Made by a program: the position numbers and the translations under genes
The notes under the pieces: generated by a model
What the model saw: only the letters and a program-made list of their open reading frames with translations
Database searches by the model: none
Told to the model about the DNA's origin: nothing
NCBI RefSeq assembly: GCF_002278925.1
Contig: NZ_NCJH01000013.1
Location: 1-64,000 of the forward strand
DNA: 64,000 bases
Source of the DNA: Polaromonas sp. 39-63-25
GTDB taxonomy: Bacteria; Pseudomonadota; Gammaproteobacteria; Burkholderiales; Burkholderiaceae_C
Direction of reading: 5' to 3'
In this document: one piece after another, positions 12,387 to 64,000 of the stretch
Numbering within the stretch: the first letter of the stretch is position 1
How the letters are laid out: each line of letters opens with the position of its first letter

Positions 12387-12395
12387 GTCTGAGTC

Positions 12396-14256: not shown

Positions 14257-14276
14257 CGACAGAAAAGAGAACAACC

Positions 14277-15515: not shown

Positions 15516-16136
15516 ATGCTGAAGATCTGGGGGCGCATGAGCTCCATCAACGTCAAGAAAGTCGTCTGGACCGCGCAGGAGCTTGCGCTGGATATCCAGC
15601 GCACGGAAGCCGGCGGCCTGTTCGGCGTGGTGAAGACCCCTGAGTACATGGCGCTGAACCCCAACTCGCTGGTGCCGGTGATCGAGGACGGGGACTACGT
15701 GCTGTGGGAGTCGAATGTCATCGTGCGTTACCTCGCCGCCAAACATTCTTCCGGCCAGATGTATCCGACCGACCTGCGCGAGCGTTTTGACGCCGAGCGC
15801 TGGATGGACTGGCAGCAGACCACGCTGAACCCGGCCAGCCGCCCCGGCTTCTGGCAGCTGGTGCGCACGCCGCCCGAGCAGCGCGACGCCGCGCTGCTTG
15901 ACGAGTCCAACGCCGCGGTCGAGGCGCTGATGGCGATGCTGGACGCCCACCTCGCGCGGCGCAGCTTCATGGTCGGCGAGCGGTTCACCGTGGCCGACAT
16001 TCCCGTGGCCTGCGAGGTGCATCGCTGGTTCGGCCTGCCGCAACCGCGCCAGAGCCGGCCCCACATCGAACGCTGGTACGACAGCCTTTGCGCCCGGCAG
16101 GCCAGCAAGGGCGTGCTGGATCTGGCACTGTCCTGA
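15516..16136 (+). CDS. Glutathione S-transferase family protein
   Basis: A 206-residue two-domain GST: a thioredoxin-like N-terminal domain with NSLVPVIEDGDYVLWESNVI (cis-Pro and glutathione gamma-Glu binding Glu-Ser) and an all-helical C-terminal domain with GERFTVADIPVACEVHRW. It starts immediately after the stop of the aminotransferase. The specific substrate is unknown. Confidence 0.92.
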   Translation: MLKIWGRMSSINVKKVVWTAQELALDIQRTEAGGLFGVVKTPEYMALNPNSLVPVIEDGDYVLWESNVIVRYLAAKHSSGQMYPTDLRERFDAERWMDWQQTTLNPASRPGFWQLVRTPPEQRDAALLDESNAAVEALMAMLDAHLARRSFMVGERFTVADIPVACEVHRWFGLPQPRQSRPHIERWYDSLCARQASKGVLDLALS

Positions 16137-16177
16137 CAACTTCCACCTTTCACCCTTTCACCTTCTGATCCAGCACC

Positions 16178-45741: not shown

Positions 45742-45909
45742 ATGACCGGGTTCCCCTTCTGGCCGCCCCAGTTCAAACCATCCCGCCACGGGATGATTCA
45801 CCGAACGACTGAAATTTATCCAGGCAGAGCGCGACGTGGCCCGACCGAGGACGTTTTATAAAAAATCGAGCTCAACTTGCCGGCGCAGACGGGCTGCGCC
45901 CGACTCACC

Positions 45910-47055: not shown

Positions 47056-47062
47056 GCGTGTC

Positions 47063-50000: not shown

Positions 50001-51130
50001 TACTCCATGAAAATTTTCTTCTCGAAAAGATCCCGCAGGAAGGCCGGTTCGCGCATCAGCTGCGACACCAGGTCGGCCTGCTCTTCCTTGGCTTCACCAT
50101 TCAGCGCCGCCGCGACATCAAGGGCGCCGGCCTTTTGCGCCGATTCGCTGCTGTCACCGGTCAGGTAAATGCCGCGAAAGAAAAACGGCTCATGGTAGGC
50201 ACTGGGCCGCATGAGTTCGTCCACGTAAACCTGCAGTTGCGCCCGAACCGCATCGATCCGGGAGGGAAGCAGAAAAAATTTCCCTGTTTCTGCACTGACC
50301 GAATCGAGCGCAAAGAGTTCGGCCGAGGTGTCCGAGACCGTTTTCACGACGCTGTCGAGCGCCTCGCCGACCCAGCCGTCCTGGTAGGTGGTGGACAGAT
50401 CGTAAGGCGATGACCAACCGAGAATGCCGGCGCGCATGGGCTCGGGCAGCGCCCTGGCGAAGGGCGAAAACCCTTCGATCTGGTCGCACCCGGAAACCAC
50501 GACGTAGACGGCAAACCGCATGGCAAAGCGGTTTTGCGCGAGCCAGAGCCGGCGGTGCGCGAGGCGGGCCAGCTTGCCGAGTTCCAGCAGGGCATCCGGG
50601 CTGTTGTCCAGCAGCAAGGCGGCCGGCACAGTGATGACGACGGAGTCAAAGGGTCTCTGGGGCCGGTATTTACGGCACAGGCCGAGGAACTCGTCCCACG
50701 GTTTTTCCGTTGCATCTTCGTCGTCGGGCGAGCCCAGGTAGGCGCCCTGCATGTCAATGACAATGCCCTTGTCAAAGAAGTGCCAGGCGATGCCCTGGGT
50801 TGCAGCGGCGGAAGCGGCCTCGGAGCTGAGCGCACTGGCCACGCCCGACTGTTCAATGGGCAGTTGCCGGTTGTCCATGCCTTCATTGAGTACCAGCACC
50901 CAGGGAATGCTGTAGCGCTCGCTCCGGGAAGCAATATTGCCCTCGATCAGTTCAACCGCCTGCCTGAAGGAGTTGCGCAGCGAGTCAAACCGGAGCTTGA
51001 CGATCTTGGGATCGCTGCCGGGCTTGGCAGCCGATCGGCGCACGGCGAAATACAGTACCAGGCCCAGAACAACCAGCACCAGGACAATCAGAACGCCCAG
51101 AGACGCCAGAAACAGGTTGTCTTTCAGCAT
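47063..51130 (-). CDS. tssM: Type VI secretion membrane-complex protein TssM (IcmF family)
   Basis: A 1355-residue inner-membrane protein of the IcmF/TssM family, the large trans-envelope component that joins TssL to TssJ. One N-terminal helix (about 6-29) and a second near 395-415 are visible; the rest is the periplasmic part, ending in a DUF1215-like beta domain. In the cytoplasmic domain the position of Walker A (after IPWVLVLNEG) reads MDNRQLPIEQSG. The usual GxxGxGK(T/S) is therefore absent and ATP binding is unlikely. I used the ATG at 51130, because the 48 residues upstream are a shadow of tssL. Confidence 0.92.
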   Translation of the reverse strand: MLKDNLFLASLGVLIVLVLVVLGLVLYFAVRRSAAKPGSDPKIVKLRFDSLRNSFRQAVELIEGNIASRSERYSIPWVLVLNEGMDNRQLPIEQSGVASALSSEAASAAATQGIAWHFFDKGIVIDMQGAYLGSPDDEDATEKPWDEFLGLCRKYRPQRPFDSVVITVPAALLLDNSPDALLELGKLARLAHRRLWLAQNRFAMRFAVYVVVSGCDQIEGFSPFARALPEPMRAGILGWSSPYDLSTTYQDGWVGEALDSVVKTVSDTSAELFALDSVSAETGKFFLLPSRIDAVRAQLQVYVDELMRPSAYHEPFFFRGIYLTGDSSESAQKAGALDVAAALNGEAKEEQADLVSQLMREPAFLRDLFEKKIFMEYGVARPSRQQLARPVLSRAARWAALVVLGGWSVGLLVATVQLSKRNPELARALSQIEADANYRARASERGEPIASDWYRAKTLSLLAAIEKLGTDKAWTFFMPGSWEVFDNLDDRVAARIEREFGEIAINTLRRELYARAADMTGVSQDASTSELIIGGECAAPAGFAAISGTPHRFSLAVEDLPEFAAMLQYLTAVERLDQAIVAMVRLQKPNQNEANDLRLLVKYTLGAELPGNMSQSIRFFRGSDIPGSLSPAAISVMHIQQAVRCSLDRGMNALDRRLFVNNDLLVSERQLVAQGARLFATDARIGGYTQTVGGYKEILRAIKEQEGLLATGKGGWMRLPDLNLGSAYDAALMRITQSRRLLGPEASDQVRQHAVTEFQKFRTEFEALLGAEGQAGVVWQEKDARFALSADRLALRDALTGLLAQPFMTPPSDREIPEIVAQSILVWDSTRLDQALALSEAHKRFMGEGLVKFPPATRPSVAAFVNFQFARLVGDHAVEALSISSRTDPGAVADAVAFDASRSRLVKVQGLLTELGAKGKADNLRGLISQDAVTRLRQVDDSLTQSDLYAIRGRDFSYWLGDRGPLLQAFGVPDGPSLLQTLALQFSRAETLGRQSEIYLASLDSAAAESQLARRWQAINRELERYRLKNPNSSLVVYEQFLVTTGADLDRANCSEKLAGKAPGGRPADYFAEKHLQVYSALLKRCNELRVGEQQEQWAAFSGNFNRLLAGRQPFAVPGAKDAPDADFDDVGQILKNSERMSRTLKETSAASRGALVGLPARRFADQFDRVRAFMAPLYPVEEGAVAGYDMAVEFRTNQSAEIEGNKVIDWTLEVGSQTLKLRDARRPLRWEPGTPITLTLRLAKDSPVNAVNDPQQPHMSADGKTVSYRFTDTWSLVRMIQRQREPDAAGRADGRAQLLRMEFPLSFTPDNPRVAPQEVRARVYLRLALSPVGKRTPVFWPGVFPTRAPEFGGQ

Positions 51131-51164
51131 CGTCGGCCCCCCGGTTGCAGTGGAGAAGGCGCTT

Positions 51165-51923
51165 TCATTGGCTGCCCCCCGTTCCGGTCGTGCTGCCGGT
51201 CTGCAGGACCTGACGCACCGGCCAGGACTGCCACAGCCAGAGCATTTCAGAGATGGCCAGCAATCCCACAACACCGAGAAGGAAGACCACCGTCCAACGG
51301 CTCAATGTCGGCATCTTTTTCGGCGCAATATGCGACAGCGTGCTGGCATAAGCGCGTTCGGACAGGACACGGTCACGGCCGGAGAGATCGGGCCGCCGCT
51401 GGTAGACAAACTGGAACAGCTCCTCCCGGTAGCCTGCAAAACGATCCGTGTCGGCTGCTCCGCGGTATTTGCCCTGGAAACCCAGCGCCAGCGCCGAGAG
51501 GTAAAGGCTGGCGATCGGCCGCAAGGACGGCTCGCGGCTGGACAGCAGTTCTTCTATGCGTTCGAAAATCCGCTCGCCGGCAATGCTGGTTCTGAAGAGG
51601 GAGGCTTCCAGCAAATGGGTGGTCCAGCAATCGCGACCTATCCAGGCCGTGTTGAGCAGGATTTCATCGGCCAGCGCGGCCTTGAGGTAACGCGCGTCGG
51701 CAATGCTCTCAAGTTCAAACCGGTTGCCCTCCCGTTTGGACTCCAGCGTCTGCAGCTCGATAAGGTTTTCCAGATGTTTGCTGACATGCTGGGCAGCCAG
51801 GTCCGGGTCGGTTTCGCGCATCTCGATCGCGCGGGTCTGGGCCTTCGAAACTTCGTCGAAGAAAGAGCGGAACTGCGTGATCAGGTGGTTGTCGTCCTGT
51901 TTGTCTCGGGTTTGGCGTGCCAT
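51165..51923 (-). CDS. tssL: Type VI secretion protein TssL (DotU family)
   Basis: A 252-residue DotU/TssL protein: a cytoplasmic helical domain (ESIADARYLKAALADEILLN, then CWTTHLLEASLFRTSIAGER and SLYLSALALGFQGKYRG) and a single C-terminal transmembrane helix near 205-227, ending in a short Gly/Thr tail. It has no peptidoglycan-binding (OmpA-like) extension, so another protein would anchor the complex to the cell wall. It starts 24 bp after the tssK stop. Confidence 0.93.
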   Translation of the reverse strand: MARQTRDKQDDNHLITQFRSFFDEVSKAQTRAIEMRETDPDLAAQHVSKHLENLIELQTLESKREGNRFELESIADARYLKAALADEILLNTAWIGRDCWTTHLLEASLFRTSIAGERIFERIEELLSSREPSLRPIASLYLSALALGFQGKYRGAADTDRFAGYREELFQFVYQRRPDLSGRDRVLSERAYASTLSHIAPKKMPTLSRWTVVFLLGVVGLLAISEMLWLWQSWPVRQVLQTGSTTGTGGSQ

Positions 51924-51947: not shown

Positions 51948-53276
51948 TCAGCCCTTGACGAAGAGAACCATTTCCTGCGGGCGTTGCGCAGACGCACTTT
52001 CCGTGGAGTTGCTGACAATCAGGGGCTCATTGGCCAGGGTCAGGGCGGCGCTGGCCTGAATGGAAAACAGGGTGTATCCCGAGCTGGCCCGCACGCCGAG
52101 CTCCTGGGCAACTTCAATGTGCGAGCGCATGGCACCGAGTACGCGTCTTTCCCTGAGCGACGCATAAGCCGACTGGGACCCGACAATGGCGCCGTTCATC
52201 CAGGCGACCAGGTCTTTTTCGGGTTGCCCGCGCAAGCCCACCACCAGCTGCTTGTCGACCCATTCCGGCAGCAGGTTGATTTCAAACGCACCATGGCGGT
52301 ACTCGAACTTGTGTTCCCGGTATTCCTGGCTGATTTCCATCAGGGAGTCCTGCAAAGCCTCGAGCACCGGGTTGAGCACCGCCAGCGGATCGGCATGATC
52401 GTACTCGGGCGGTACCGGCGGCAGGGCCCCGGGCTTGAGCATGCTCAGAGGCCCGAGCAGGGCGCATAGCGCCAGATACAGGGGATAAGGGTGCAGACTG
52501 GGTGTGCGCAAGACGGCTTCGACTTGCGGCAGGCCAGTCATCAGGTTGCGAAGCCGCTCCCTTTGCTCCAGGTAGGCCAGCCTGTCCTCGGTTTTGGAGG
52601 ACGGCACAGCCGTCTGCTTCGCCACAAATGCAGCCTTGCCGCGCAATTGGCCGACGAAGGCAGACACCCGCTCCCACAAGACGCCGTCTTTCGGCATCTC
52701 GATCAGCGCGGGCAGGGTCTCGCCCATCTTGATGAGTTCGTTGTCCTTGAACACCGTGCCCAGGCGCAGCCAGGTATAAATTCCCGAGGGCACATCACCT
52801 GCAACCAGCGAGAGGTTGGGCAGCAACCGCGGAAGGTCGGCAGGCAGTGCCTCCGACACCTCGTCTTCCACCTGGCCCATGGCAACCGAACGGAACCGCG
52901 AGGGCGAGCCTTTGTCGCGCATGCTTTTGGTCAGCGGCAGGACCAGGTAGAAATCCAGAGGGGCGTTGCCCAGCGCTTCAGCAAACGGGGCCAGTTTGAG
53001 CTCGAGCGTGCCATGCTGGGCATTGTCTGCCGAGAAGCTGACCGAGGTACCGTCCGGCATGATCGCTTCCAGCTGCTGGACCCTGACAATGCCGGCCGGC
53101 AACAACCCCATGTCGATTTTCAGGCTGCGCACACCCCATGAAAAAGGTGCGGCCAGCAATGTGTGCAAGGCCACCAGGGAGTCGAGCCGGGCCGATGCCT
53201 GCTGGAAATGCTGCGGCGACAACAGCATGCCCTCATGCCACTGGATGCGCTCTTCAACCGGGAGGGACTTAACCAT
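51948..53276 (-). CDS. tssK: Type VI secretion baseplate protein TssK
   Basis: A 442-residue baseplate protein. The TssK signature near the N-terminus is clear: IQWHEGMLLSPQHFQQ, followed by WGVRSLKIDMGLLPAG. TssK links the TssEFG baseplate wedge to the membrane complex. I chose the ATG at 53276 (MVKSLPVEE) because GAGGGAG lies 6 nt upstream. It overlaps the stop of a possible 23-codon reading frame. Confidence 0.95.
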   Translation of the reverse strand: MVKSLPVEERIQWHEGMLLSPQHFQQASARLDSLVALHTLLAAPFSWGVRSLKIDMGLLPAGIVRVQQLEAIMPDGTSVSFSADNAQHGTLELKLAPFAEALGNAPLDFYLVLPLTKSMRDKGSPSRFRSVAMGQVEDEVSEALPADLPRLLPNLSLVAGDVPSGIYTWLRLGTVFKDNELIKMGETLPALIEMPKDGVLWERVSAFVGQLRGKAAFVAKQTAVPSSKTEDRLAYLEQRERLRNLMTGLPQVEAVLRTPSLHPYPLYLALCALLGPLSMLKPGALPPVPPEYDHADPLAVLNPVLEALQDSLMEISQEYREHKFEYRHGAFEINLLPEWVDKQLVVGLRGQPEKDLVAWMNGAIVGSQSAYASLRERRVLGAMRSHIEVAQELGVRASSGYTLFSIQASAALTLANEPLIVSNSTESASAQRPQEMVLFVKG

Positions 53277-53340
53277 GGATGGCTCCCTCATCTGTCGTGC
53301 GCCCTTCCGGGATACGGAGCGTCTTGGCGTTTTTCTTCAT
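53269..53340 (-). CDS. Possible 23-residue peptide between tssJ and tssK
   Basis: The frame MKKNAKTLRIPEGRTTDEGA plus three residues, ending at TAA, has a strong Shine-Dalgarno (GAGGAG, ~8 nt before ATG) and overlaps the tssK start by 8 bp. The sequence is basic then acidic and matches nothing I know. It may be a translated leader that couples tssK expression, or chance. Confidence 0.35.
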   Translation of the reverse strand: MKKNAKTLRIPEGRTTDEGAIHG

Positions 53341-53354
53341 AGGAACTCCTCGGC

Positions 53355-53843
53355 TTATTCGGTCTTCAGGGCTGACACGGAAAATGAGCGCGCCCCCAGC
53401 TGCACGAGTATTTCCCCCTGCATCTGGTCCACCCGTACGCGATGCTCTCCAGGCGTCAGATAATCCGCAAAAAGCAGGACGCCAACCACCCGAGACGCCC
53501 CGAAGGTGTCGGCGGGAAGTTTGAGGGTCTGTCCGGGCACGATCTCCATGCTGCGGTAGCTCAACCCCTCCGGAAAGGTCTTGGCCAGATCGGCGCGGGA
53601 CGAAAACCATTTGGATGCCGGCAATGTCGACACCATGCCCAGCGTTGCCTCGTCCCGAAGCAGCACCACGTCCAGCGCAACCGGGGTATTCAGGTTGGCG
53701 CCCTCGCTCGCGATGACAGTCATGCCGTTCCAGTCCAGGCGGCTTCCTTTCGCCGTGAAGAACCCGGCGACACTGCTGATGGTGCTGCAGGCCGACAAGC
53801 TCCCCAGGACAAGAATAATCAGGCAAATTTTTAGAAATTTCAT
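53355..53843 (-). CDS. tssJ: Type VI secretion lipoprotein TssJ
   Basis: A 162-residue outer-membrane lipoprotein: signal ending in LSAC (near residue 19), then a small transthyretin-like beta domain with LNTPVALDVVLLRDEATLG and PGEHRVRVDQMQGEI. It anchors TssM to the outer membrane. I used the ATG at 53843, which is followed by a normal lipoprotein signal. It starts 7 bp after the stop of the symporter gene, so structural and metabolic genes are in one transcript. Confidence 0.9.
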   Translation of the reverse strand: MKFLKICLIILVLGSLSACSTISSVAGFFTAKGSRLDWNGMTVIASEGANLNTPVALDVVLLRDEATLGMVSTLPASKWFSSRADLAKTFPEGLSYRSMEIVPGQTLKLPADTFGASRVVGVLLFADYLTPGEHRVRVDQMQGEILVQLGARSFSVSALKTE

Positions 53844-53850
53844 TTTTTTC

Positions 53851-55335
53851 TTAACCAGGGCTGTTCCCTGCAACGGCCATGGGCCCCGATGCATACGGCT
53901 GAGGCAGGCCCGCGCCCGTCTTTCGCATCCCGACGCCGATACCCGCAATCGTAATCAATAACGCCGCCAGCAAGACACAAGCCAGCGCCATTGCAACACT
54001 GGCCCGGGAAAAAACAAAGCGGACAGGCTCCAGCGCGCGCAGGTTCGATGATGCGGCGGTTTCAATACGCTCCGAAGGCAGTCCGCGGGAAACCAGCACG
54101 ATCAGGACACAGGCAAACAGCAGCGTGAGCAGGTTGCGCGGGCCTTCGCAGACCAGGTCGATCGCCAGGAAAAGTGCCAGTGCAGCTTCAATGGGAAGAT
54201 TCAGTATGGACAGCACCACACCGGCGAACCCTACCGCGGCCAGGCTGTTGTTGCCCGCCGATGCAAACGCCGCCAGCGAGGCACCGACGCAAATCAGCAG
54301 GAACTCTTGAGGCGTGATGGAGCGCCCATAGATATTGGCCACAAACACTGCCAGCAGCGAGAAATAAAGTGCTGCACCGGAACGCATGAACACCGACGCA
54401 ACCGGAATCACCAGTTCGACAATGCCCCGGCTGAACCCCAACCGGGAACTCATGGCCTCTATCGTGTCGGGAATGCTTGCCGTGGTGCTGGCGGAGGTCA
54501 GGCTGATGAGAACAGGCGCCTTCAGCGCCGACATCACACTGGCTGGAGAAAGCCCTGACTTTTTCCAGATCAACAGAATGGCCGCTCCAGAGAGGGAAAA
54601 AGCGAACAGATAGAAGGAGCCCAGAAAACTGCCCATCGCATGAAGCGTCCGGGCGTCGGTCCTGGCCACAAAATAGGCTGCCATGCCAAAAGCCAGCACC
54701 GGAATAAAAACGTTGACGCGGGAAATGATCAACTCAAGGGTGCGATAAATCGCCTCGAAAATGCCCATCAGTGCATTGGTTTGCGGCCTGAGCAGCGCAG
54801 CAAAAGCCAGCCCGAACAGGATGGCGCACAGCAGGATGGCCAGCGACTGGCCTTCCGCAAGCACCCGGAAAAAGTTGTCCGGCACCGCAGCCATCCACAA
54901 ATCGGGCGCCGCTGTTACTTCGGAAGCCCCGGCACCATACAGGGAAACTTCGGCGTTTGCGGCATCTCCGCCGGCGTTTTGCACCAGGGCACCGAGGTAT
55001 TCACGGTCGGCAGAGCTCAGATCCTGACCGGTGCCGGCGAGCACGCCGAACATTGCCCCCAGCACTGCACACAGCACCACCAGGCCTACCGCCAGACCCA
55101 CAATCATCAATGCGCGTTTTCCAGGTTGCGGCAAGGCCAATGTCTGACGCAGGCCGAAAAAAGTGGCCACAACCAGCAACGGAAGCGCAGCCATATTGAC
55201 CAGGGCCAGGTAGATCTGCCCAAGAACAAAGGCCTCGCCACCCACGGCAGGTGCAAGCCAGCCCAGCAGTGCTCCCCCCATCACGCAAAGCAGGAGAGCC
55301 AAGGGACTGTTCGACAGGCGCTTCAGGAGTCCCAT
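53851..55335 (-). CDS. Dicarboxylate/amino acid:cation symporter family protein, diverged (DAACS 2)
   Basis: A 494-residue membrane protein of the glutamate/aspartate transporter (DAACS/SLC1) fold with about eight helices and two hairpins. The substrate region is strongly altered. The TM7 NMDGT motif reads FMRSGAAL, and TM8 reads AIDLVCEGPRNLLTLLFACV: the second Asp is Glu, Arg is kept, and the Na+-site Asp is lost. HP1 has LTSASTTASIP in place of TRSS. Transport with different coupling, or a different ligand, is likely. The start at 55335 overlaps the upstream racemase stop by 13 bp. A charged, flexible C-terminal tail follows the last helix. Confidence 0.82.
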   Translation of the reverse strand: MGLLKRLSNSPLALLLCVMGGALLGWLAPAVGGEAFVLGQIYLALVNMAALPLLVVATFFGLRQTLALPQPGKRALMIVGLAVGLVVLCAVLGAMFGVLAGTGQDLSSADREYLGALVQNAGGDAANAEVSLYGAGASEVTAAPDLWMAAVPDNFFRVLAEGQSLAILLCAILFGLAFAALLRPQTNALMGIFEAIYRTLELIISRVNVFIPVLAFGMAAYFVARTDARTLHAMGSFLGSFYLFAFSLSGAAILLIWKKSGLSPASVMSALKAPVLISLTSASTTASIPDTIEAMSSRLGFSRGIVELVIPVASVFMRSGAALYFSLLAVFVANIYGRSITPQEFLLICVGASLAAFASAGNNSLAAVGFAGVVLSILNLPIEAALALFLAIDLVCEGPRNLLTLLFACVLIVLVSRGLPSERIETAASSNLRALEPVRFVFSRASVAMALACVLLAALLITIAGIGVGMRKTGAGLPQPYASGPMAVAGNSPG

Positions 55336-56039
55336 CCCGGCCTGTTCCAGCCTCGTGCGAGGGCAAAAGCAACACTGGCTCGCGCCAGTTCCAGTGAGCT
55401 GTCGATCAACCCCAAGCCCGATACATCTGCATACCTGGAAGCAATGGGAATTTCGGTGCAGCCCATGATGATGGTGGTCGCACCTTGCCGCGCGGCCTCC
55501 CGACAGGCTTCGGTCAGATGTTGCCCGCCGGCAGCCAGGTCGCCAGCCTTGATTTCGCGTATGCAACCGTCCACATTGTTCTGGCCATCCTCGGGATCCG
55601 GGAGCATGAAGTCGATGCCGCGCGACCGCAGTTCCCGCTGGTAGAAGCCTGAGGCCAAAGCGCCCCGTGTGGCAAAAACGGCCACCCGCGAGACACCCGT
55701 GGGGGAAATTGCCTCGACGCAGGCCTTGGCGATATGCAGCAACGGCACCTTGCTGCTCGAACTCATTTCATCAAACCAGTGATGCGACGAATTGCAGGGA
55801 ATGGCGATGACGCCAACGGCAGCCTGGTTAAGTACTTCGATGCCCGCCAGCAGCTGCGGCAAGGGATCCCGCCCATGCCCCAAAATAGCGCTGGAGCGGT
55901 CATGGGTATGCGGCAAGCTCGCCACGATGACCGGCAGATGGTCCTGATCGCGCGCCGCAGGGGTGAGCTTGACCAGCTTGTCGAGAAAGTCGACCGTTGC
56001 TGATGGCCCCATTCCTCCAAATACGCCGATTCGGGACAT
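55323..56039 (-). CDS. Aspartate/glutamate racemase family protein
   Basis: A 238-residue cofactor-independent racemase of the YgeA-like group. Both catalytic Cys are present: PCNSSHHW (Cys82) and MGCTEIPIA (Cys194). The N-terminal IGVFGGMGPSATVDFLDKLV is typical. It should interconvert L/D acidic or related amino acids. It has no signal peptide, so it acts in the cytoplasm unless secreted by the T6SS. It lies between two diverged DAACS transporters in the T6SS operon. Confidence 0.9.
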   Translation of the reverse strand: MSRIGVFGGMGPSATVDFLDKLVKLTPAARDQDHLPVIVASLPHTHDRSSAILGHGRDPLPQLLAGIEVLNQAAVGVIAIPCNSSHHWFDEMSSSSKVPLLHIAKACVEAISPTGVSRVAVFATRGALASGFYQRELRSRGIDFMLPDPEDGQNNVDGCIREIKAGDLAAGGQHLTEACREAARQGATTIIMGCTEIPIASRYADVSGLGLIDSSLELARASVAFALARGWNRPGWDS

Positions 56040-56048
56040 CCTGGCCTC

Positions 56049-57329
56049 CTATATTTTCAGGGGCCTGGGGCAGATCAGGGACACCGCGGCGTTGTTGCCA
56101 ATCACCAGCACCAGGGTCCTGAGCATGTCGCAAATCGGATCCACCGCCAGGAACAGGATGAAAGCCGCCTCAAAAGGAAGACCGAGGTAGCTGCATGTCA
56201 GTCCGACCAGCGACACCGTGAGCAAGCCCGTCATGCCCGCCGACGCAAAGCCGGCGAGTATCGATGCCGAGAGGATGACGATCAACTCTGTCGGACCAAT
56301 CGGTTTTGCATACAACTGGGCAATGAACACGGTAGCGGCCACGTAATAGATCACCGGCCCGATACGCAGCAGCGACACGCTCAGGGGCACCATCAGCTCG
56401 ACCCTTGAACGCGCAAAACCCAGGCGGTCCGCCAGACTTTCGATCATGATGGGCATGCATGTCGCACTGCTGCGGGTGGCCAACGCGAGGGCAAAGGGGC
56501 CCCTCAAGGCATTGAGAGTCTGGCCCAGCGTCGAGTTGGAACGCTTCCAGATAATGATTGTTGCAATGACCAGGGCCAGCACGGAAGCAACAAAAAACGC
56601 CAGGACAAACTGGGCCATGGCCTGCAAGGGGCCGATGCCGGTTTTGGCCATCTGCGCAGCGCTCATGCAGAAAAGAACGATGGGCAGCGGATAGTTCAAC
56701 CAGCGCATCAGGGTCTGGCAGGAGTGGTAAATGGTTTCCAGGGACTGGGTCAGCCCGTCGGAAACCCGCGACGGAACCTGACCCACCGCAAAACCGAAAA
56801 GCAACGCGAAGACGAGTGCCTTGAGCGTGTCGCCGCTGGCCAGCGCGGCAAAAATATTCGATGGCACCAAGCTGACCAGTACTTCGGTGAAGCTCACCGA
56901 CTTGACCGGCGCATCGACGCCCCCAAGGCTCATGACCGTGTCGCTGGAATTGAGATCGTTGCCGACAATCTTTCCGAAAGTCTGCATGGTTTCACTTGAC
57001 AGGTTGGAACCCGGTTTCATCACCAGCAGTGTTGTCGCCCCCAACAACGCGACAACAATAGAAAACACGACGAACACCACCGCCACGCGAGCCATCAGCC
57101 CGCCGGCCCCACCCTCGCGGAACAGGCGCTGCAAACTGAAAATCACGGCCGACACCATGAAGGGCAAGGCAATCATCTTGAGGAGATCGACATACACATC
57201 GCCCACAAAACCGAGCTTCAGCCCGACGGCAGGCATGTACATGCCCAGCGCGAAACCCGCCGACAGGCTGGCCACCACCACCCAGGGGTTGAGCGCAAAT
57301 GCATAGAGTTTTTTCAGGTTGATCATCAC
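56049..57329 (-). CDS. Dicarboxylate/amino acid:cation symporter family protein, diverged (DAACS 1)
   Basis: A 426-residue member of the DAACS/SLC1 fold. HP1 keeps LATRSSATCMPI. TM8 keeps the substrate-binding Asp and Arg (VDPICDMLRTLVLVIGNN, about 396-413) but has Leu for the conserved Asn and Asn for the Na+-binding Asp. In TM7 the NMDGT motif is replaced by LLRIGPVIYY (about 318). Acidic substrates are likely still recognised, while sodium coupling looks changed. It starts 17 bp after the solute-binding protein gene; a second in-frame ATG follows directly. Confidence 0.82.
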   Translation of the reverse strand: MMINLKKLYAFALNPWVVVASLSAGFALGMYMPAVGLKLGFVGDVYVDLLKMIALPFMVSAVIFSLQRLFREGGAGGLMARVAVVFVVFSIVVALLGATTLLVMKPGSNLSSETMQTFGKIVGNDLNSSDTVMSLGGVDAPVKSVSFTEVLVSLVPSNIFAALASGDTLKALVFALLFGFAVGQVPSRVSDGLTQSLETIYHSCQTLMRWLNYPLPIVLFCMSAAQMAKTGIGPLQAMAQFVLAFFVASVLALVIATIIIWKRSNSTLGQTLNALRGPFALALATRSSATCMPIMIESLADRLGFARSRVELMVPLSVSLLRIGPVIYYVAATVFIAQLYAKPIGPTELIVILSASILAGFASAGMTGLLTVSLVGLTCSYLGLPFEAAFILFLAVDPICDMLRTLVLVIGNNAAVSLICPRPLKI

Positions 57330-57346
57330 ACGCCTTAGTTAATCGA

Positions 57347-58315
57347 TTACCGGTCCAGGGCCTTCAGCACCTTGTCAATCGTCAGCTTTTCGGTGCTCTC
57401 TGCCAAAAACTGGTTCACAAAGGCCAGGAGCGTCGGATCCTGAATGCCCACGGCAATGCCAAGGGTGTCTTCGAGGTCCTTGAATGTGACCGTGCGCAGC
57501 GTCAAGGACGCCGTCGGGTCACTTTTCAAAATCCGCTTGATCTCAAACTCATCACGGTAGGCCGCCATGATCTGGCCTTTTTCAAGCGCCTTGAGGACAG
57601 CCTCCCAGGTCGGAAATTCGCGAAGCTCCGAAAGCGGAAAGTTTTTGCTGGCGTAGTCTGAGAAAGACGATTTCGCAATGACCCCGATGGATCCCTTGAA
57701 TTCGCGAACAACAACGGGGAGGGGCCGCTCCCGAGCCAGTTCGGCAAACTTCACCCGGTTCAGGATGAAGGCGTGGTTCAGGCGGATATAAGGCTCGGTG
57801 AAGCTGATCATCTGGGCCCGCGCCAGTGTCCGCGACAGCTTGCTGATGCCGAGGTCGGCCTCCTGGCGGGCAACCACATCAACCACCTCATTGAAAGTGC
57901 GGGCGCTGCGGTCAAACCTGACGGTGACCTTGAGCTCCTTCGCAATCGCTTTGGCCAGGTCCACCTCCAGACCGACCAGCTCACCCTTCTTCATGTAAAA
58001 GAACGGGGGCGTGTCCACGCCGAGCATCGCAACGACGAGTTCTCCCCGATTGACGATGCGGGCAATGCTGGGCGCCAGCAGTCGGCCATCGGCCACCTTG
58101 ACCAGGCTCGGAGCAGGCAACGGAGAGGGTACCAGCGCCACCTCCGCCAATGGAGCGGCAGGGGCCGGCGCGCTGGCGGTAGGGGGCGCCGCGAAGGCTG
58201 CACCGGCACAACCCCAGAGCCCGAGAACAAACAAGCAGGCTTTCCACCAGGAAGTTGACTGGCTGTGCAAGGGCTGTCCGGACTGTGTTTTTGACATCAT
58301 CAAATCCTGATTCAT
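57347..58315 (-). CDS. Orphan periplasmic solute-binding protein (family 3)
   Basis: A 322-residue protein with a signal peptide (core ACLFVLGLWGCAGAAFA) and an Ala/Pro-rich segment, followed by a type 2 periplasmic-binding domain: RIVNRGELVVAMLGVDTPPF, GLEVDLAKAIAKELKVTVRF, and ISFTEPYIRLNHAFILNR. This fold binds polar amino acids. No ABC permease or ATPase is nearby, so it is either orphaned, scavenging, or linked to the adjacent symporters. The ATG at 58315 overlaps the upstream stop by 4 bp (ATGA). Confidence 0.85.
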   Translation of the reverse strand: MNQDLMMSKTQSGQPLHSQSTSWWKACLFVLGLWGCAGAAFAAPPTASAPAPAAPLAEVALVPSPLPAPSLVKVADGRLLAPSIARIVNRGELVVAMLGVDTPPFFYMKKGELVGLEVDLAKAIAKELKVTVRFDRSARTFNEVVDVVARQEADLGISKLSRTLARAQMISFTEPYIRLNHAFILNRVKFAELARERPLPVVVREFKGSIGVIAKSSFSDYASKNFPLSELREFPTWEAVLKALEKGQIMAAYRDEFEIKRILKSDPTASLTLRTVTFKDLEDTLGIAVGIQDPTLLAFVNQFLAESTEKLTIDKVLKALDR

Positions 58316-58527
58316 GGCTTGGCAACGGAGGGCGAAGGCGCGTCCCCGACGGGTGCTGATGAAGGCGGGGTTACGGTTAACACCGCTGCGGGCGCAGTTC
58401 CTTCTGCGGGTGAAGAAATCTTCTTGCCGATTTCCACCCCGAGCAAGAACAGGAGCACACAAAGCAGCAACAGGCAAAGCCCGGCAATGGTCATCATCCG
58501 GGTCGTCAGCGACAAAGTGTATTGCAT
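58312..58527 (-). CDS. Small single-pass membrane protein
   Basis: A 71-residue protein with one strong hydrophobic helix (MMTIAGLCLLLLCVLLFLLG, about 11-30) and a Pro/Ala/Ser-rich periplasmic or cytoplasmic tail. No family recognised. Its stop overlaps the start of the solute-binding protein gene. It may help assemble or retain the neighbouring transport proteins. Confidence 0.65.
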   Translation of the reverse strand: MQYTLSLTTRMMTIAGLCLLLLCVLLFLLGVEIGKKISSPAEGTAPAAVLTVTPPSSAPVGDAPSPSVAKP

Positions 58528-58546
58528 TTGTTACCTATCTTCACGT

Positions 58547-58933
58547 TCAAGGAACCATCACGGTGAACTGCCCCGGGACAAGAATCTGGATGACGCCACC
58601 CCACTGGCACATCAGCTTGGAAGAGTTCTGCAAGGCAGGCATCCCGCCCAGCAATACCGTCGCAGAACCGGGCATCCAGGGTGCGGCAGTCATGGGAATG
58701 CAGGGCATGGGCGTCAACACGCCGAGAGCGGCAGCCGTAGCGGCAGCCACCATCGGGTTGGAGGGGCAATTGCACATGCCAAAGGGCAGCACATTGACAA
58801 ACGGAACATGGTCCATGATGTTCGCGGCCGGTCCACCCGTGAGCACACGGTTCGCGGGAAGCACGGTCAGCACGCTGGGGGCCACGCCAAAACTGCACTG
58901 AAGGGTTGCGCCCACGGCGACCTGAATGCCCAT
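58547..58933 (-). CDS. PAAR-like protein (DUF4280)
   Basis: A 128-residue DUF4280-type PAAR-like tip protein: VAVGATLQCSFGVAPS at the N-terminus, MCNCPSNPMV, and LMCQWGGVIQI at the end. Cys are at 13, 54, 56, 78 and 109. Such proteins cap the VgrG spike. It lies two genes after vgrG in the operon. No toxin domain is attached. Confidence 0.85.
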   Translation of the reverse strand: MGIQVAVGATLQCSFGVAPSVLTVLPANRVLTGGPAANIMDHVPFVNVLPFGMCNCPSNPMVAAATAAALGVLTPMPCIPMTAAPWMPGSATVLLGGMPALQNSSKLMCQWGGVIQILVPGQFTVMVP

Positions 58934-58935
58934 GC

Positions 58936-59676
58936 TCAGCCTTTCACCAGTTTTTCGAGACGTTTCATGAGGCTGGTTTTGGCGTCGTCACGCAACTCCA
59001 CCCCTTTACTGTCGAAACGCCTGGGTTTGCCAACCGGTTTTCCTGCGCGGTACAACAGCACCTCCATCACCTGCCCGTCCGGCCAGTACCGCGTCAGCGG
59101 CCCCTCAAGCAGGTTGTTTCTGTAGCTGGCTTTCTGCACCACCGCACCGTCGCGGTCGTAGTCCAGCGTTTCCCCTTCCAGCAGGCCCTTGCGGTACTGC
59201 GACCGGCGGACCACCTCACCCTCGTTCATGAACAAGACCTCGCCTTCCACCTCACCTCTGAAAAAATTCTGTTTCATGGCGACCTCTCCGGCTTCCGAAT
59301 AGGAGACCGACTCGCCATGAAGACTCCCATTCGAAAACCGCTGCTCGGACAACAGGCGCCCTTTCACGAAAACGCGGGTCAAGCCATGCTGCAAGCCGCG
59401 GCTGTAATTCGCCTCCTGCACCGGATTGCCATGCTCATCAAAAAGCCTGAGGACACCATGGAGCACACCCGCATCGTATTGGGCGCTGGCAAGCAGCTTG
59501 CCGTCTGGGCCAAAAGAGCTCATTTCGCCGTGAAGCACACCGTCCATCAAACCGGCGCGGTTGGACAGCCCGCCGGCGTCATTGAACTGCTCGCGCTCGA
59601 CAAAGCCGCGCGGCATCTCGCCAGCGGGCGTGTCCGCGGGTACCGCAGCAGTGGCAGAGGTTTTTTGGGCCGTCAT
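58936..59676 (-). CDS. MORN/YwqK-type repeat protein
   Basis: A 246-residue cytoplasmic protein composed of MORN-like repeats (G.L.G...Y...G variants), such as DGVLHGEMSSFGPDGKLLAS, AGVLHGVLRLFDEHGN, NGSLHGESVSYSEAGEV and LLEGETLDYDRDGA, as in proteins called YwqK antitoxins. It lies between vgrG and the PAAR-like gene, starting 1 bp after the vgrG stop. It could be a chaperone/adaptor or an immunity protein. No enzymatic motif is seen. Confidence 0.75.
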   Translation of the reverse strand: MTAQKTSATAAVPADTPAGEMPRGFVEREQFNDAGGLSNRAGLMDGVLHGEMSSFGPDGKLLASAQYDAGVLHGVLRLFDEHGNPVQEANYSRGLQHGLTRVFVKGRLLSEQRFSNGSLHGESVSYSEAGEVAMKQNFFRGEVEGEVLFMNEGEVVRRSQYRKGLLEGETLDYDRDGAVVQKASYRNNLLEGPLTRYWPDGQVMEVLLYRAGKPVGKPRRFDSKGVELRDDAKTSLMKRLEKLVKG

Positions 59677-59677
59677 C

Positions 59678-61669
59678 TCAGTTGATCTTTACCAGGCCAC
59701 CCTTGAGGGTCAGCATCCCGCCGCCGTCCACCGTTTGCATGGCTGACGCCTTGTTGGTCACCATCGCACCCTCGTTGTCCAGCGTGGTCCCGGCCTTGTT
59801 CTTTAATCCGGTGCCAGCCTGGTTCGTCAGGTCCAGTCCGGCCTTGTTGGTCAGGGACGTGCCGGCCTCGTTGGTCAGCGCTGTGCCTGCCTTGCTGGTC
59901 AGGGACGTGCCGGCCTCGGCAGCGAAAGTGGTTCCAGACTTGATCGTGATGGAGCCTGTCACATCAATCACCAGGTTGCCCGTAACCTTCAGTTCGTAGT
60001 TCCCGGTGACGGCCTGACTGAAATCAGCCTTGTTGGTATGGGTCTCATTGCCGGTGATCGTGAGCTCGCGTGTGCCTTTGACCTTGTGCACTTCCTTGCC
60101 CGTCTGGACATCAACAGTGCGGTCACCCTTTTCCAGCGTGTGTGTCTCGGAACCCTTGACCAGCTTGGTGCTCAGGTCGTTCTCGATCTCGATCTTCATG
60201 TCTTTCTGCGCATGGAAATAGAACTCTTCCGAATCCTTTTTGTCTTCCATCCGCATCTCATTGCCGGCGGTGCCCTGCTTGGAAGCGCGGGATTTGATGG
60301 TGCTCTGGGTTTGCATGCCCGGCAGCGTCACCGGCGTGGTGTTCTCGGCGTTGTAGACGCAGCCAGTGACAATAGGCCGGTCGGGATCGCCATCGACATA
60401 ACTGACCACCACTTCCTGTCCAATCCGCGGCAGGAACAGGCTCCCCCAGCCGAGCCCGGCCCAGGACTGGGAAACGCGCACCCAGCACGAACTGTTTTCG
60501 TCCTTGACGCCAATCCGGTCCCAATGGAACTGCACCTTGATCCGCCCATGCGTGTCGGTCCATATTTCCTCGCCGCTGGGTCCCACCACCAGAGCCGTCT
60601 GGCTGCCCGAAACCCGCGGAAGCGGCGACAGGCGCGGCGGACGGAAGGGCACGGTGGCGGCAAACGCCTCAAAGCTGTTGCTGTACTGCGCGTTGCTGGC
60701 CGTATGCGTCACTGCCCGCAGCACCAGCGTCGTGTTCAAGGCTGTTCTCGAATGACCCGAGAGCGTGAATTTCCTGCCTGCGGAAAGCGGGTAGCAATAA
60801 CTCGTGCCGCGGCATACCGCGCCGTCGACCTGGCTGGCTTCCGAGCGGACCTTGGCGCGCTGCGTGCCATCGGCCAGCACTGCATGTTTGCCTGGAAATT
60901 CGAACTGCTTTCCCTTGCCCGTCGCCCCCGCGGATTCGGTCAGCAATGCGGTGCTGGGCGTGAGGTAGTTGTAGTCACTGTATTCAAATTTCTGCGCCAC
61001 CAGGCGGCTTTCGTACTCCAGCTGGTTGACGGTATCCATCATGCGGCGCCCACCAGGGTCGGGGAAGTAACGCAAAGCGGCTCCATCAACACAATCGATG
61101 TGGGCGGCCGAACTGTCGCCCAGCACCATGGTGTGCCCGCCATCGGTGAAGGTGAAGAAATAGAAGATGCCTTCCTCCTCCATCAACCGGGAGATGAACT
61201 CCAGTGCAGTCTCGTCGTACTGGACGCAGTATTCGCGGCTTCCATAAGTCCCCGTCAGCTGCGCATCAAAAGTCACGCCAAACTCGCCCAGGACCGCCTT
61301 GATGATGTCGGCCGCCGTCTTGTTCTGGTAGATGGCCCTGTCTCTGCTGAGTGTCAGGAGCCAGAGGCTGGGCACCAACTCCGCCGAATAGGACGAGAAA
61401 GAGCGGTCACCGCCCGCGTGCATGAAACGCGACACGATGCCGTTGAAAAACCGGGCAGGTCCAGCCGGCAAGGCGAGCTTGACCGTGACCGAAGCGCCCA
61501 CAATCAGGGCCGGATCCAGGCCTGTGTCGGACGAACGCATCGCCAGCGAAAACCTGAAAGGCTGCGAGATGGCCTCCACGCCCTGGAAGGAGTCGAGCAA
61601 CAACACATCTGCGCCGAACGGTGTGGTCACCGTCAACGCGGAGTTTGTCTGTTTGAAGCCAGTCCGCAT
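59678..61669 (-). CDS. vgrG: Type VI secretion spike protein VgrG
   Basis: A 663-residue VgrG: a gp27-like N-terminal part (FRFSLAMRSSDTGLDPALIVG and YCVQYDETALEFISRLMEEE), the OB-fold gp5 part (RIKVQFHWDRIGVKDENSSC, then GDPDRPIVTGCVYNAEN), and a needle. The C-terminus (about 600-645) carries many short TSLTNKAG-like repeats (TxLxNxAG), probably a beta-helix extension, with no attached toxin domain. It lies 6 bp after the tssH stop. Confidence 0.95.
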   Translation of the reverse strand: MRTGFKQTNSALTVTTPFGADVLLLDSFQGVEAISQPFRFSLAMRSSDTGLDPALIVGASVTVKLALPAGPARFFNGIVSRFMHAGGDRSFSSYSAELVPSLWLLTLSRDRAIYQNKTAADIIKAVLGEFGVTFDAQLTGTYGSREYCVQYDETALEFISRLMEEEGIFYFFTFTDGGHTMVLGDSSAAHIDCVDGAALRYFPDPGGRRMMDTVNQLEYESRLVAQKFEYSDYNYLTPSTALLTESAGATGKGKQFEFPGKHAVLADGTQRAKVRSEASQVDGAVCRGTSYCYPLSAGRKFTLSGHSRTALNTTLVLRAVTHTASNAQYSNSFEAFAATVPFRPPRLSPLPRVSGSQTALVVGPSGEEIWTDTHGRIKVQFHWDRIGVKDENSSCWVRVSQSWAGLGWGSLFLPRIGQEVVVSYVDGDPDRPIVTGCVYNAENTTPVTLPGMQTQSTIKSRASKQGTAGNEMRMEDKKDSEEFYFHAQKDMKIEIENDLSTKLVKGSETHTLEKGDRTVDVQTGKEVHKVKGTRELTITGNETHTNKADFSQAVTGNYELKVTGNLVIDVTGSITIKSGTTFAAEAGTSLTSKAGTALTNEAGTSLTNKAGLDLTNQAGTGLKNKAGTTLDNEGAMVTNKASAMQTVDGGGMLTLKGGLVKIN

Positions 61670-61675: not shown

Positions 61676-64000
61676 CTATACCTGTTTCGGCGGGCCGAAA
61701 GTAAAGGAAAAATCGTCACGTGCATCCACGCCCATATGCACCTCGTCAAAGGCGTCGGACATGGAAATCCGCTCCAGTACCTGGCGTGAAAGCTCAGGCA
61801 GAACGGCATGCGACAGGATGTGGTCAACGTTACGCGCACCACTGTCGACTTCCGTACACCGGGCCGTGATGGTTTGCGCCACGGCGTCGTCCCAGGTGAA
61901 CTCGGCTTTGTGGTTGCGGGAGAAGCGCTGGGCCAGCTTTCCCAGCTTGAGGCTCACAATGGACCGTATCTGCTCGTCGCCAAGCGGGTAATAGGGAACA
62001 ATCGCCAGTCGCCCGAGAAAAGCCGGCGAAAACTGTTGCATCAATACCGGCCGCAGGCGCTCGATCAGGACTTCCGGATCCGGCCGTCGCCCACCTTCGC
62101 AGGCATCGGTGATGACATCCTGGGCGGCATTGGACGTCAGCAGAATCAGCGTGTTCTTGAAATCGATCTGGACACCTTCGCCATCTTCCATGACGCCTTT
62201 GTCGAAAACCTGGAAAAAGAGCTCCAGCACGTCGGGATGCGCCTTTTCCATTTCGTCAAGCAAGACCACGCTGTAAGGCCGGCGCCGGACAGCTTCTGTG
62301 AGGACGCCGCCACGACCGTAGCCGACATAGCCCGGTGGCGCCCCCTTGAGGCTGGACACGGTGTGGGCCTCCTGGAATTCGGACATGTTGACGGTCACCA
62401 TGTTGCGGTCTCCGCCATAAATCATGTCGGCCAGTGCAAACGCAGTCTCGGTCTTGCCTACGCCGCTGGGGCCGACCAGCAGGAAGACCCCGACCGGCTT
62501 GCCCGGGTCATCCAGGTCAGCACGGGAAGTCCGGACGCGTCGCGCAATCGCATCCAGCGCCTGGTCCTGCCCAACCACGCGCTCGGCCAGTTTTTCCTTG
62601 AGGTTGAGGACGGTATGCAACTCGTCGGCCAGCATCTTGCCGACCGGAATGCCGGTCCAGCCGGAAATCACGGAAGCAACAACGCCTGAGTCAACACACA
62701 CAGGAATCATGGGCTCGTCGCTCTGGATCGCATCCAGTCCCTTCTCGAGCCGGTTCAGGGACGCAGACATGTCTTCGCTGTCTTCGCCTTCCAGCTGGCT
62801 GCCGTCCTCCCCCAATCCTTCGGCGATGCGCTTGCGCAATGCCACAATTTCGGCGACCGCACTTTTTTCCTCTTCAAGCTTTTCCTTCAGGCGGCGCCAG
62901 CGTTGCCTGAGGCCTTCGAGTTCCAGAGACAGCGCGGCAATCGCGTGCGCATGGTCGCGCCCGGTTGCAGATTCATGGCGGTAGATCCGCAGCTGGTTTT
63001 CCGCATTGGATATCTCGCGCACCACCGATTCGATTTCCGGCGGCAGTCCGTTCTGCCCAATGGCCACACGCGCGCACGCCGTATCCAGCACGCTGATGGC
63101 CTTGTCGGGAAGCTGGCGCCCCGAGATATAACGGTGCGACAGCTTGACGGCGTCCCTGACTGCATCGTCGATGATCTCGACGCCGTGATGCTTTTCCAGC
63201 GTTTGGACCATGCCGCGCAGCATGTCAATGGCGACCTCCTCGGTAGGCTCGTCAACCTTGACCACCTGGAAGCGTCGCGCCAGGGCCGGGTCGCGCTCGA
63301 CATATTTTTTGTACTCGGCCCAGGTGGTGGCCGCGATCGTGCGCAGCTCACCACGTGCCAGCGCAGGCTTGAGAAGATTGGCAGCGTCGCCCTGGCCTTC
63401 CGCCCCGCCGGCGCCAATCAGCTGGTGCGCCTCGTCGATGAACAGCACGATGGGCACCAGGGAGGCCTTGACTTCGGCAATAACGGATTTCAAGCGGTTC
63501 TCGAACTCGCCCTTGACGCCTGCTCCGGCTTGCAGCAAGGCCAGGTCCAGCGAGCGCACAGATACCTTTTGCAGGGCAGGAGGAACATCGCCCTGCACGA
63601 TGCGCTGCGCAAAACCTTCCACCACTGCGGTTTTGCCGACGCCGGCCTCACCGGTCAGAATGGGATTGTTTTGCCGCCGGCGCAACAAGACATCAATGAT
63701 CTGGCGAATCTCGGCATCGCGCCCACGGATGGGATCAATCAGGCCCTGCCTGGCCTGCTCCGTGATGTCGACGGTGTATTGGTCCAGCGAAGGGTTGGAT
63801 GACGCGCCACGACGCATGGTGGGCATTTGCGGGGAAGACGCTTCCGACACACCCGGTCCGGCTGCCGGGCCCTGCGCCTGCGACATGGCTGCCGGTTTCG
63901 CCGAGCGCACGGCACCACCGGCGTCTTCCGCCGAGTTGGTCAACAAATCGGCCAAATTCTTGCGCAGGCTCTCGCGCGGAATTTGCAGCAAGCCTGGCGC
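61676..64000 (-). CDS. tssH: Type VI secretion ATPase TssH/ClpV (N-terminus cut by window edge)
   Basis: 774 residues of a ClpV AAA+ unfoldase that recycles contracted T6SS sheaths. The first AAA domain has Walker A GEAGVGKTAV, the second has GPSGVGKTET, and between them is a coiled-coil M-domain. DEAHQL and LDEMEKAHPDVLELF are the Walker B segments. The N-terminal Clp_N domain lies beyond position 64000; the frame is open to the edge. A TTG at 63991 should not be taken as the start. Confidence 0.95.
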   Translation of the reverse strand, partial: APGLLQIPRESLRKNLADLLTNSAEDAGGAVRSAKPAAMSQAQGPAAGPGVSEASSPQMPTMRRGASSNPSLDQYTVDITEQARQGLIDPIRGRDAEIRQIIDVLLRRRQNNPILTGEAGVGKTAVVEGFAQRIVQGDVPPALQKVSVRSLDLALLQAGAGVKGEFENRLKSVIAEVKASLVPIVLFIDEAHQLIGAGGAEGQGDAANLLKPALARGELRTIAATTWAEYKKYVERDPALARRFQVVKVDEPTEEVAIDMLRGMVQTLEKHHGVEIIDDAVRDAVKLSHRYISGRQLPDKAISVLDTACARVAIGQNGLPPEIESVVREISNAENQLRIYRHESATGRDHAHAIAALSLELEGLRQRWRRLKEKLEEEKSAVAEIVALRKRIAEGLGEDGSQLEGEDSEDMSASLNRLEKGLDAIQSDEPMIPVCVDSGVVASVISGWTGIPVGKMLADELHTVLNLKEKLAERVVGQDQALDAIARRVRTSRADLDDPGKPVGVFLLVGPSGVGKTETAFALADMIYGGDRNMVTVNMSEFQEAHTVSSLKGAPPGYVGYGRGGVLTEAVRRRPYSVVLLDEMEKAHPDVLELFFQVFDKGVMEDGEGVQIDFKNTLILLTSNAAQDVITDACEGGRRPDPEVLIERLRPVLMQQFSPAFLGRLAIVPYYPLGDEQIRSIVSLKLGKLAQRFSRNHKAEFTWDDAVAQTITARCTEVDSGARNVDHILSHAVLPELSRQVLERISMSDAFDEVHMGVDARDDFSFTFGPPKQV

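Follow-up and report, generated by a model that had tools for sequence, protein, structure and literature searches.

A two-layer gene set within a type VI secretion operon of Polaromonas sp. 39-63-25: a putative sodium-independent acidic-amino-acid unit and a T6SS-linked second carrier

Analysis of a 64,000-nucleotide (nt) stretch of Polaromonas sp. 39-63-25 (contig NZ_NCJH01000013.1, positions 1 to 64,000; the window) revealed that a type VI secretion system (T6SS) operon contains genes encoding an amino-acid-type binding protein, two carriers of the SDF family (DAACS1 and DAACS2) and an Asp/Glu-type racemase. Comparison with related loci divides this module in two, one part persisting where the T6SS is gone and the other not seen without a T6SS in betaproteobacteria, and the sodium-site residues behind the label "symporter" are absent from both carriers. 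The reading that we tentatively prefer, while giving it somewhat less than an even chance, is that the binding protein, DAACS1 and the racemase would form a sodium-independent unit for acidic amino acids, joined by an altered, T6SS-dedicated and perhaps sensory DAACS2. Loci and genomes are labeled L and G below, G000 being the genome of this strain.

Regarding gene order, the PAAR-like gene and tssJ are separated by five genes on the minus strand, encoding a small membrane protein, the SBP_bac_3 binding protein, DAACS1, the racemase and DAACS2 (Table 1). In broad agreement with an earlier note made from the sequence of the window, which gave gaps under 20 bp or overlaps, gaps are at most 20 nt or replaced by short overlaps: 19 nt between the PAAR-like and small-membrane-protein genes, an overlap of 4 nt with the binding-protein gene, 17 nt to DAACS1 (20 nt if counted from its ATG start), 9 nt to the racemase gene, an overlap of 13 nt with DAACS2 and 7 nt to tssJ. 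Promoter-like matches (2 against 1.8 expected) and terminator-like matches (11 against 8.2 expected, standard deviation 3.0) were at chance level, so that the scan gives nothing that breaks the predicted operon. The row of T6SS genes is complete, with tssB, tssC, hcp, tssE, tssF and tssG just past the window edge, upstream of clpV and on its strand (L068). A product of chance or annotation error is rejected, since 43 T6SS-linked loci, the window included, contain these genes, if not every gene in each. The five embedded genes are thus in place as described, but the small membrane protein, listed with the others in the note, was rejected as a member of the module and assigned to the T6SS lineage, because similar proteins are kept between PAAR and tssJ at places without the module (L072 and L075, by eye; L118 and L119, by tblastn).

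The binding protein was used to screen 299 genomes of the same family (10 matches including the own genome), 399 of the order (5 including the own), 215 from the G416 family (10) and 180 from the G667 family (22), which combine to 44 distinct genomes; a class-wide sample of 369 genomes gave one more, on a 3.9-kb contig. Genes in the loci were assigned by best tblastn match. Same-genome duplicates (L043/L057, L045/L060, L046/L064, L048/L062 and L044/L061) were counted once, Ramlibacter albus was counted once per side (L065 lone, L073 T6SS-linked), and five binding-protein pairs with a similarity score >0.97 were kept as separate genomes or records. The binding protein lay next to T6SS genes in 36 of the 44 genomes and not in the other 8. 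The reverse view, from TssK, was sampled in two families: 9 of the 299 own-family genomes had a close TssK (E 1e-70 or better), 8 of them with the module, and in the G667 family a TssK at 1e-90 was present in 18 of the 160 genomes sampled, 17 of them with the module, so that 25 of 27 close-TssK genomes carry it. The possibility raised by the earlier note, that the module is mostly found away from T6SS loci, therefore does not hold overall, but other views are more even: in Polaromonas three lone sets were seen against two T6SS-linked ones, and of 11 loci from a racemase scan 5 have no T6SS gene nearby and 6 do. Among plasmid records, three of four contain T6SS genes and one none.

Within the T6SS-linked loci, the binding protein is present in 43/43, a figure reached partly by construction because the screens mostly used this protein, DAACS1 in 42/43 and the racemase in 31/43, while DAACS2 was the best tblastn match in 42/42 observable loci (L067 stops inside the racemase gene, leaving DAACS2 and Cys194 unobservable there). 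Only the binding protein and DAACS2 occur in every T6SS-linked locus where they could be observed, and the claim of a complete set for binding, import and racemization of acidic amino acids fails for the 12 of 43 loci in which the racemase is missing. The 13 lone betaproteobacterial loci, called "lone" when the stretch examined (at most about 10 kb per side; 12 kb for L084) is free of T6SS genes, show the converse pattern, with the binding protein, DAACS1 and racemase each in 13/13 and DAACS2 in 0/13 by tblastn. Two loci (L081 and the Gemmobacter locus L084) stand outside these 13 and inside the 15 racemase loci without nearby T6SS genes; L081 is a 3.9-kb contig on which the racemase, only 31% identical, flanks the binding protein on the opposite side. 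The alphaproteobacterial L084, a plasmid of Gemmobacter aquarius (11234-16141), encodes two small hypothetical proteins, the binding protein, an SDF carrier, a racemase and a distant second SDF carrier outside the DAACS2 clade, with no annotated T6SS gene within 12 kb.

The usual site of the module lies between the small-membrane-protein gene and tssJ. Three close T6SS loci (L072, L118 and L119) have PAAR, the small membrane protein and tssJ with the site empty, and G1345 combines a T6SS that has the module with another that lacks it. In L119 (G1359), a same-lineage T6SS without the module, the tssK and tssM matches are each split in two, through decay or assembly error. In G221 the module adjoins tssA/tssM and not the PAAR-tssJ interval (L052, L075); it is off its usual site yet beside T6SS genes, so the linkage has been kept or regained. 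The T6SS of Ramlibacter albus holds only the binding protein and DAACS2, and a separate set of binding protein, DAACS1 and racemase lies elsewhere, in a ribosomal-protein locus (by eye).

Regarding the carriers, both score above the PF00375 cut-off (201 and 162 bits against 27.9) and are the only PF00375 matches in G000, a search in which no DctA-like carrier was seen. In an alignment with structures of the GltPh/GltTk type, DAACS1 has LRIGP and DAACS2 has MRSGA in place of the NMDGT motif of transmembrane helix (TM) 7. GltPh N401 and D405 of TM8 are replaced in both carriers, D405 by N or A (TM8 of DAACS2 reads EGPRN). The motif is absent from 56/56 DAACS1 sequences, a number that excludes L053 (match in two pieces) and L073 (DAACS1 absent), and from 42/42 DAACS2 sequences; the D405 column does read D in two DAACS1 (L092, L093). 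These residues help to form the sodium sites Na1 and Na3, and the Met of the motif sits between aspartate, Na1 and Na2 (PMC5110648). The position of this Met is occupied by Arg in 56/56 DAACS1 and by Arg or Lys in 41/42 DAACS2, and the TM7 Arg could act as a fixed cation. The description of both carriers as symporters is thus not supported, since both lack the sodium-site residues examined and the substrate site of DAACS2 is altered.

In SDF carriers the Asp of TM8 and the Arg of helical hairpin 1 (HP1) belong to the site for acidic substrates. The window DAACS1 retains such an acidic-amino-acid site, with D400 and R403 in TM8 and R285 in HP1; the role of the TM8 Arg in the substrate site is described in PMC5110648. 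DAACS1 sequences with a neighboring racemase have D or E at GltPh D394 in 45/45 cases and the HP1 Arg in 44/45, whereas both are lost in 9 of the 11 without one, a pattern that weakly suggests that DAACS1 and the racemase are tied to a common amino-acid substrate. GltTk transports D- and L-Asp alike (PMC6482001).

DAACS2 differs in several respects. A clade of 18 DAACS2 sequences (support 100/100) is entirely T6SS-linked, the protein has a further C-terminal hydrophobic stretch (438-472), the HP1 Arg is missing (present in 0/42), and in the window copy the TM8 Asp is replaced by Glu. Across 15 chosen T6SS loci, identity to the window averages 73.5% for DAACS1, 53% for DAACS2 and 50% for tssJ.

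In three Polaromonas loci (L058, L059 and L061) the set is close to the uvrD gene that also neighbors the window T6SS (tblastn), and likewise to a phospholipase-A1-like frame (by eye), with no T6SS match in the stretch examined. Upstream of the set each retains a scar corresponding to the start region of the small-membrane-protein gene, of 56 bases in L058, 31 in L059 and 20 in L061, where the score of 35 compares with a best score of 24 in the scar-free L065. The three loci are most simply explained as deletions of the T6SS around the set, which is favored because the scar gene belongs to the T6SS lineage; the converse, ancestral lone sets around which a T6SS was inserted, is disfavored, the scar being the first bases of a T6SS-lineage gene. 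The kept stretch corresponds to about 58500-58545 of the window, with ATG changed to ATA in L059, and its bases may possibly be the promoter of the set. A TssK match is absent from the three genomes (G049 is 87% complete and the other two are of unknown completeness); of the six lone-set genomes tested, four have no TssK match and two (R. albus and a Rhodocyclaceae) have one elsewhere. The ratio of nonsynonymous to synonymous substitution rates (dN/dS) among the three lone Polaromonas sets is 0.05-0.14, a rough value with dS at 0.8 to 1.7. The binding protein, DAACS1 and the racemase are probably useful without a T6SS, since the set survives T6SS loss under low dN/dS and in TssK-free genomes.

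Lone loci show other neighbors. In L095 (1279-3372, on an 8.2-kb contig) and L096 (10185-12278) the open reading frame (ORF) of a 698-amino-acid (aa) protein lies before the binding-protein gene and overlaps it; that of L095 encodes an adenylate/guanylate cyclase carrying a sensor domain of the PDC/Cache type, and the L096 copy was matched by look only. Upstream of the lone set of L053 (G074) are genes for a peptidase-C39 ABC exporter, another ABC protein and a Peripla_BP_6 protein, and the DAACS1 match of this set falls into two overlapping pieces.

The racemase has both catalytic residues, Cys82 and Cys194, as the earlier note had recognized, and exceeds the cut-offs of TIGR00035 and PF01177 (131 bits). 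Cys82 is present in 46/46 sequences and Cys194 in 45/45 observable ones. The score against the NCBIfam cysteate racemase CuyB is also above the cut-off of 190 bits, but two Polaromonas racemases from outside the module (L054 and L009, used as controls from among the racemases L054-L056, which lack the module, L009 being from the genome of L056) exceed it likewise, so that the score leaves the substrate unfixed; CuyB was not accepted as the function, and Asp, Glu and cysteate are the candidate substrates.

The identification of an amino-acid-type binding protein was likewise upheld: the PF00497 protein has a hydrophobic stretch at 25-44, giving a signal-peptide-like start, followed by a Pro/Ala-rich linker, and an Arg and an Asp aligned with those of solved relatives occur in 58/58 sequences. 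The Arg presumably holds the carboxylate of the ligand and the Asp its amino group. The operon contains no ABC permease or ATPase, and the neighbors of the binding protein are SDF carriers.

Taken together, the cassette would be an accessory of one T6SS lineage, that of the P. phymatum T6SS-b type, in two layers. In the first, which may be self-sufficient for Asp, Glu or an analog such as cysteate, the periplasmic binding protein would capture the acidic amino acid, DAACS1 would transport or exchange it over the inner membrane without sodium, by means of the fixed Arg at the Met position of the sodium site, and the cytoplasmic racemase would interconvert L and D forms. The second layer would be DAACS2, a T6SS-dedicated paralog whose substrate site is altered and which has an extra helix at the C terminus; together with the binding protein it would most likely signal ligand status to the T6SS, with a possible benefit to T6SS use, or modulate DAACS1; alternatively it may transport a related ligand. 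A more specific version, in which the T6SS has its own amino-acid sensor, the binding protein passing an acidic, possibly D-, amino acid, for example from lysed prey, to the sodium-free carrier with its built-in Arg cation while DAACS2, kept and lost with the T6SS, relays occupancy through its extra helix, appears decidedly unlikely. If true, this version would make DAACS2 a carrier turned sensor in a secretion system, linking attack to feeding.

Several points weigh against this two-layer reading. The sodium-site check covered TM7 and TM8, and Na3 also has a part in TM3. Two of the eleven racemase-free loci (L101, L106) retain both DAACS1 residues, so that a perfect coupling of these residues to the racemase was rejected; racemase-free loci were judged by neighborhood, and the rest of the L101 and L106 genomes was not searched for a racemase. 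The nine losses may also be few events, because the DAACS1 of L052 and L080, the two of the nine that the tree included, are sisters (99/97). DAACS2 keeps the TM8 Arg in 42/42 sequences, the Asp position is still acidic in 35/42 (Glu 23, Asp 12, other 7), and its dN/dS is 0.11-0.14, a rough value because most pairs have a dS close to or over 1; DAACS2 may therefore still bind or carry an acidic ligand, and its description as a carrier without a substrate site was discarded as too strong. In P. phymatum the activity of the T6SS-b promoter peaks on citrate and is low on glutamate (PMC8356804), which gives no pointer to an acidic amino acid as inducer.

In a rival reading the whole cassette is a sensor: the binding protein and the two carriers would form a membrane complex that activates the T6SS when organic acids or amino acids are present, and the racemase would only tune the signal. 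The persistence of the first layer in four genomes without a TssK match speaks against it. Dicarboxylate sensing by the two symporters was proposed by the authors of PMC8356804, a source whose available text reports promoter fusions and a tssBC deletion and shows no deletion of module genes. The reading fits the constancy of the binding protein and DAACS2 in T6SS-linked loci, the dispensable racemase, the retention of DAACS1 despite both lost substrate residues in nine racemase-free loci and the sensor-domain cyclase beside the set in L095; we consider it a possible explanation on the unlikely side. An ordinary nutrient-uptake cassette riding in the T6SS operon without functional connection, DAACS2 being just a second carrier, would account for the 13 lone loci with the first layer alone, for the Gemmobacter plasmid set, for the retained TM8 Arg and mostly acidic residue of DAACS2, and for a usual site between the small membrane protein and tssJ whose empty state in three loci is as expected after one insertion and vertical descent. 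Such hitchhiking has against it the lack of DAACS2 in those 13 loci, the displaced yet T6SS-adjoining module of G221 and the retention of the module in close-TssK genomes, and is judged unlikely.

By analogy with ModA of the P. aeruginosa H2-T6SS (PMC9769707), and with the secreted RbsB-like proteins linked to the T6SS in R. leguminosarum, of which PMC8356804 tells, the binding protein might be exported by the T6SS and return amino acids to DAACS1 and DAACS2, and its presence in all 43 T6SS-linked loci with no ABC permease beside it would suit such a role. With its ordinary signal-peptide-like start, no T6SS targeting domain in Pfam, and lone loci of which four are in TssK-free genomes, export seems very unlikely. 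The suggestions of the earlier note that the racemase is secreted by the T6SS, or that it protects the own cell wall, could draw on its position downstream of vgrG/PAAR, the usual place of effectors, from which the racemase or the set could act as an effector or as a protector of the own wall against effectors by way of D-amino acids. A racemase reportedly shields A. baumannii during T6SS warfare. D-Glu for the cell wall is normally made by MurI, and G000 has two further racemase-type matches. The Pfam scan of the racemase found its racemase domain only, with no delivery domain, and the enzyme is absent from 12 of the 43 T6SS-linked loci and present in 15 loci without T6SS genes nearby; of six such genomes tested, four have no TssK match. 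Secretion and wall protection are thus both unlikely, the former suggestion being unsupported and the latter having no direct support, and together they are the most improbable of the readings considered.

Table 1. Features of the T6SS operon in the window and the basis of their assignment.
Feature	Position	Strand	Basis
tssA, true start within ORF	45910..47268	-	PF06812
tssM	47063..51136	-	PF14331
tssL	51165..51923	-	PF09850
tssK	51948..53291	-	TIGR03353 250 bits
tssJ, T6SS lipoprotein (MKFLKICLIILVLGSLSACS...)	53355..53843 (start/end approximate)	-	position, lipobox-like start; tblastn matches at same place in T6SS loci of relatives
DAACS2, SDF-family carrier	53851..55335	-	PF00375 E 2e-47
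Asp/Glu-type racemase, 238 aa	55323..56039	-	PF01177; TIGR00035 169 bits; CuyB 219 bits; alignment with 1jfl, 3s7z
DAACS1, SDF-family carrier	56049..57329	-	PF00375 E 3e-59; alignment with GltPh/GltTk-type structures
SBP_bac_3 amino-acid binding protein, predicted periplasmic	57347..58315	-	PF00497 E 1e-19
Small membrane protein, 71 aa, one hydrophobic stretch	58312..58527	-	similar proteins in loci L072, L075, L118, L119
PAAR-like protein (DUF4280)	58547..58933	-	PF14107 E 3e-35
MORN-repeat (YwqK-like) protein	58936..59676	-	PF07661
vgrG (tssI)	59678..61669	-	TIGR03361 585 bits
clpV (tssH), start outside window	61676..63991	-	TIGR03345 1146 bits; 907-aa ORF in L068 (own genome)

Regarding the remaining genes of the locus, tssJ gave no Pfam or NCBIfam match at E 0.001. 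Directly downstream of tssA, between it and a phospholipase A1 gene, lies a 551-aa ORF (44146-45801, minus strand) with no Pfam match at E 0.001. The phospholipase A1 gene (PF02253; 42629-43939, plus strand) adjoins the T6SS, and similar reading frames, on the opposite strand, are found near the lone Polaromonas sets (by eye). Upstream of tssB in the own genome there is a 445-aa ORF (L068:11391-12728), also with no Pfam match at E 0.001.

Compared with known systems, DAACS1 and DAACS2 resemble the SDF carriers GltPh/GltTk in matching PF00375, and DAACS1 in retaining the HP1 Arg and the TM8 Asp and Arg; they differ in the replaced NMDGT, N401 and D405 residues, and DAACS2 differs further in lacking the HP1 Arg, in having Glu for the TM8 Asp and in its C-terminal stretch. 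The racemase shares both catalytic Cys with the TIGR00035/CuyB enzymes and aligns over nearly its full length with the Pyrococcus aspartate racemase 1jfl, but no sulfonate-degradation gene was recognized beside the module racemase. ModA works with an ABC system. The H2-T6SS of P. aeruginosa is similar in tying a periplasmic binding protein to a T6SS, the ligand there being molybdate (PMC9769707), while SDF carriers and a racemase accompany the binding protein here. Polaromonas is listed among the genera with few to no T6SS core genes in PMC11481896, the available text of which does not mention the racemase or symporter.

The closest counterpart is the T6SS-b of P. phymatum STM815 (Bphy_5978-5997; PMC8356804, PMC5732942), which has the same genes in the same order from vgrG to tssJ-K-L-M-A, so that the statement of the earlier note that no T6SS with this module had been described is contradicted in print. 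Downstream of vgrG, PMC8356804 (2021) lists a YwqK antitoxin, a PAAR-like protein, a hypothetical protein, an amino acid ABC transporter, a symporter, an Asp/Glu racemase and a second symporter, and reports 15 strains with similar clusters, one of them racemase-free; the same T6SS-b is treated in PMC5732942, which places a Ser/Thr kinase gene upstream and in its available part leaves racemase and symporter unmentioned, and expression of the T6SS is given in PMC5789663. On the sequence record (L082), as in the window, clpV, vgrG, the MORN, PAAR-like and small proteins, the binding protein, SDF carrier, racemase, second SDF carrier and tssJ-K-L-M-A follow in one direction, with proteins 43-77% identical to those of the window. 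The arrangement is thus already described in a related bacterium and is not new, since the same synteny exists both in print and on record. The authors of PMC8356804 called the module intriguing and two sodium:dicarboxylate symporters within a T6SS, to their knowledge, unreported; the available parts of their account name the carriers as such and mention no lost sodium motif, lone sets or DAACS2 clade. To this the present comparison adds the counts of T6SS linkage, the missing sodium motif, the T6SS-linked DAACS2 clade and the lone sets with their scar, and the question of why dicarboxylate symporters are found in a T6SS narrows to the ligand, to sodium-free transport and to the effect of DAACS2 on the T6SS.

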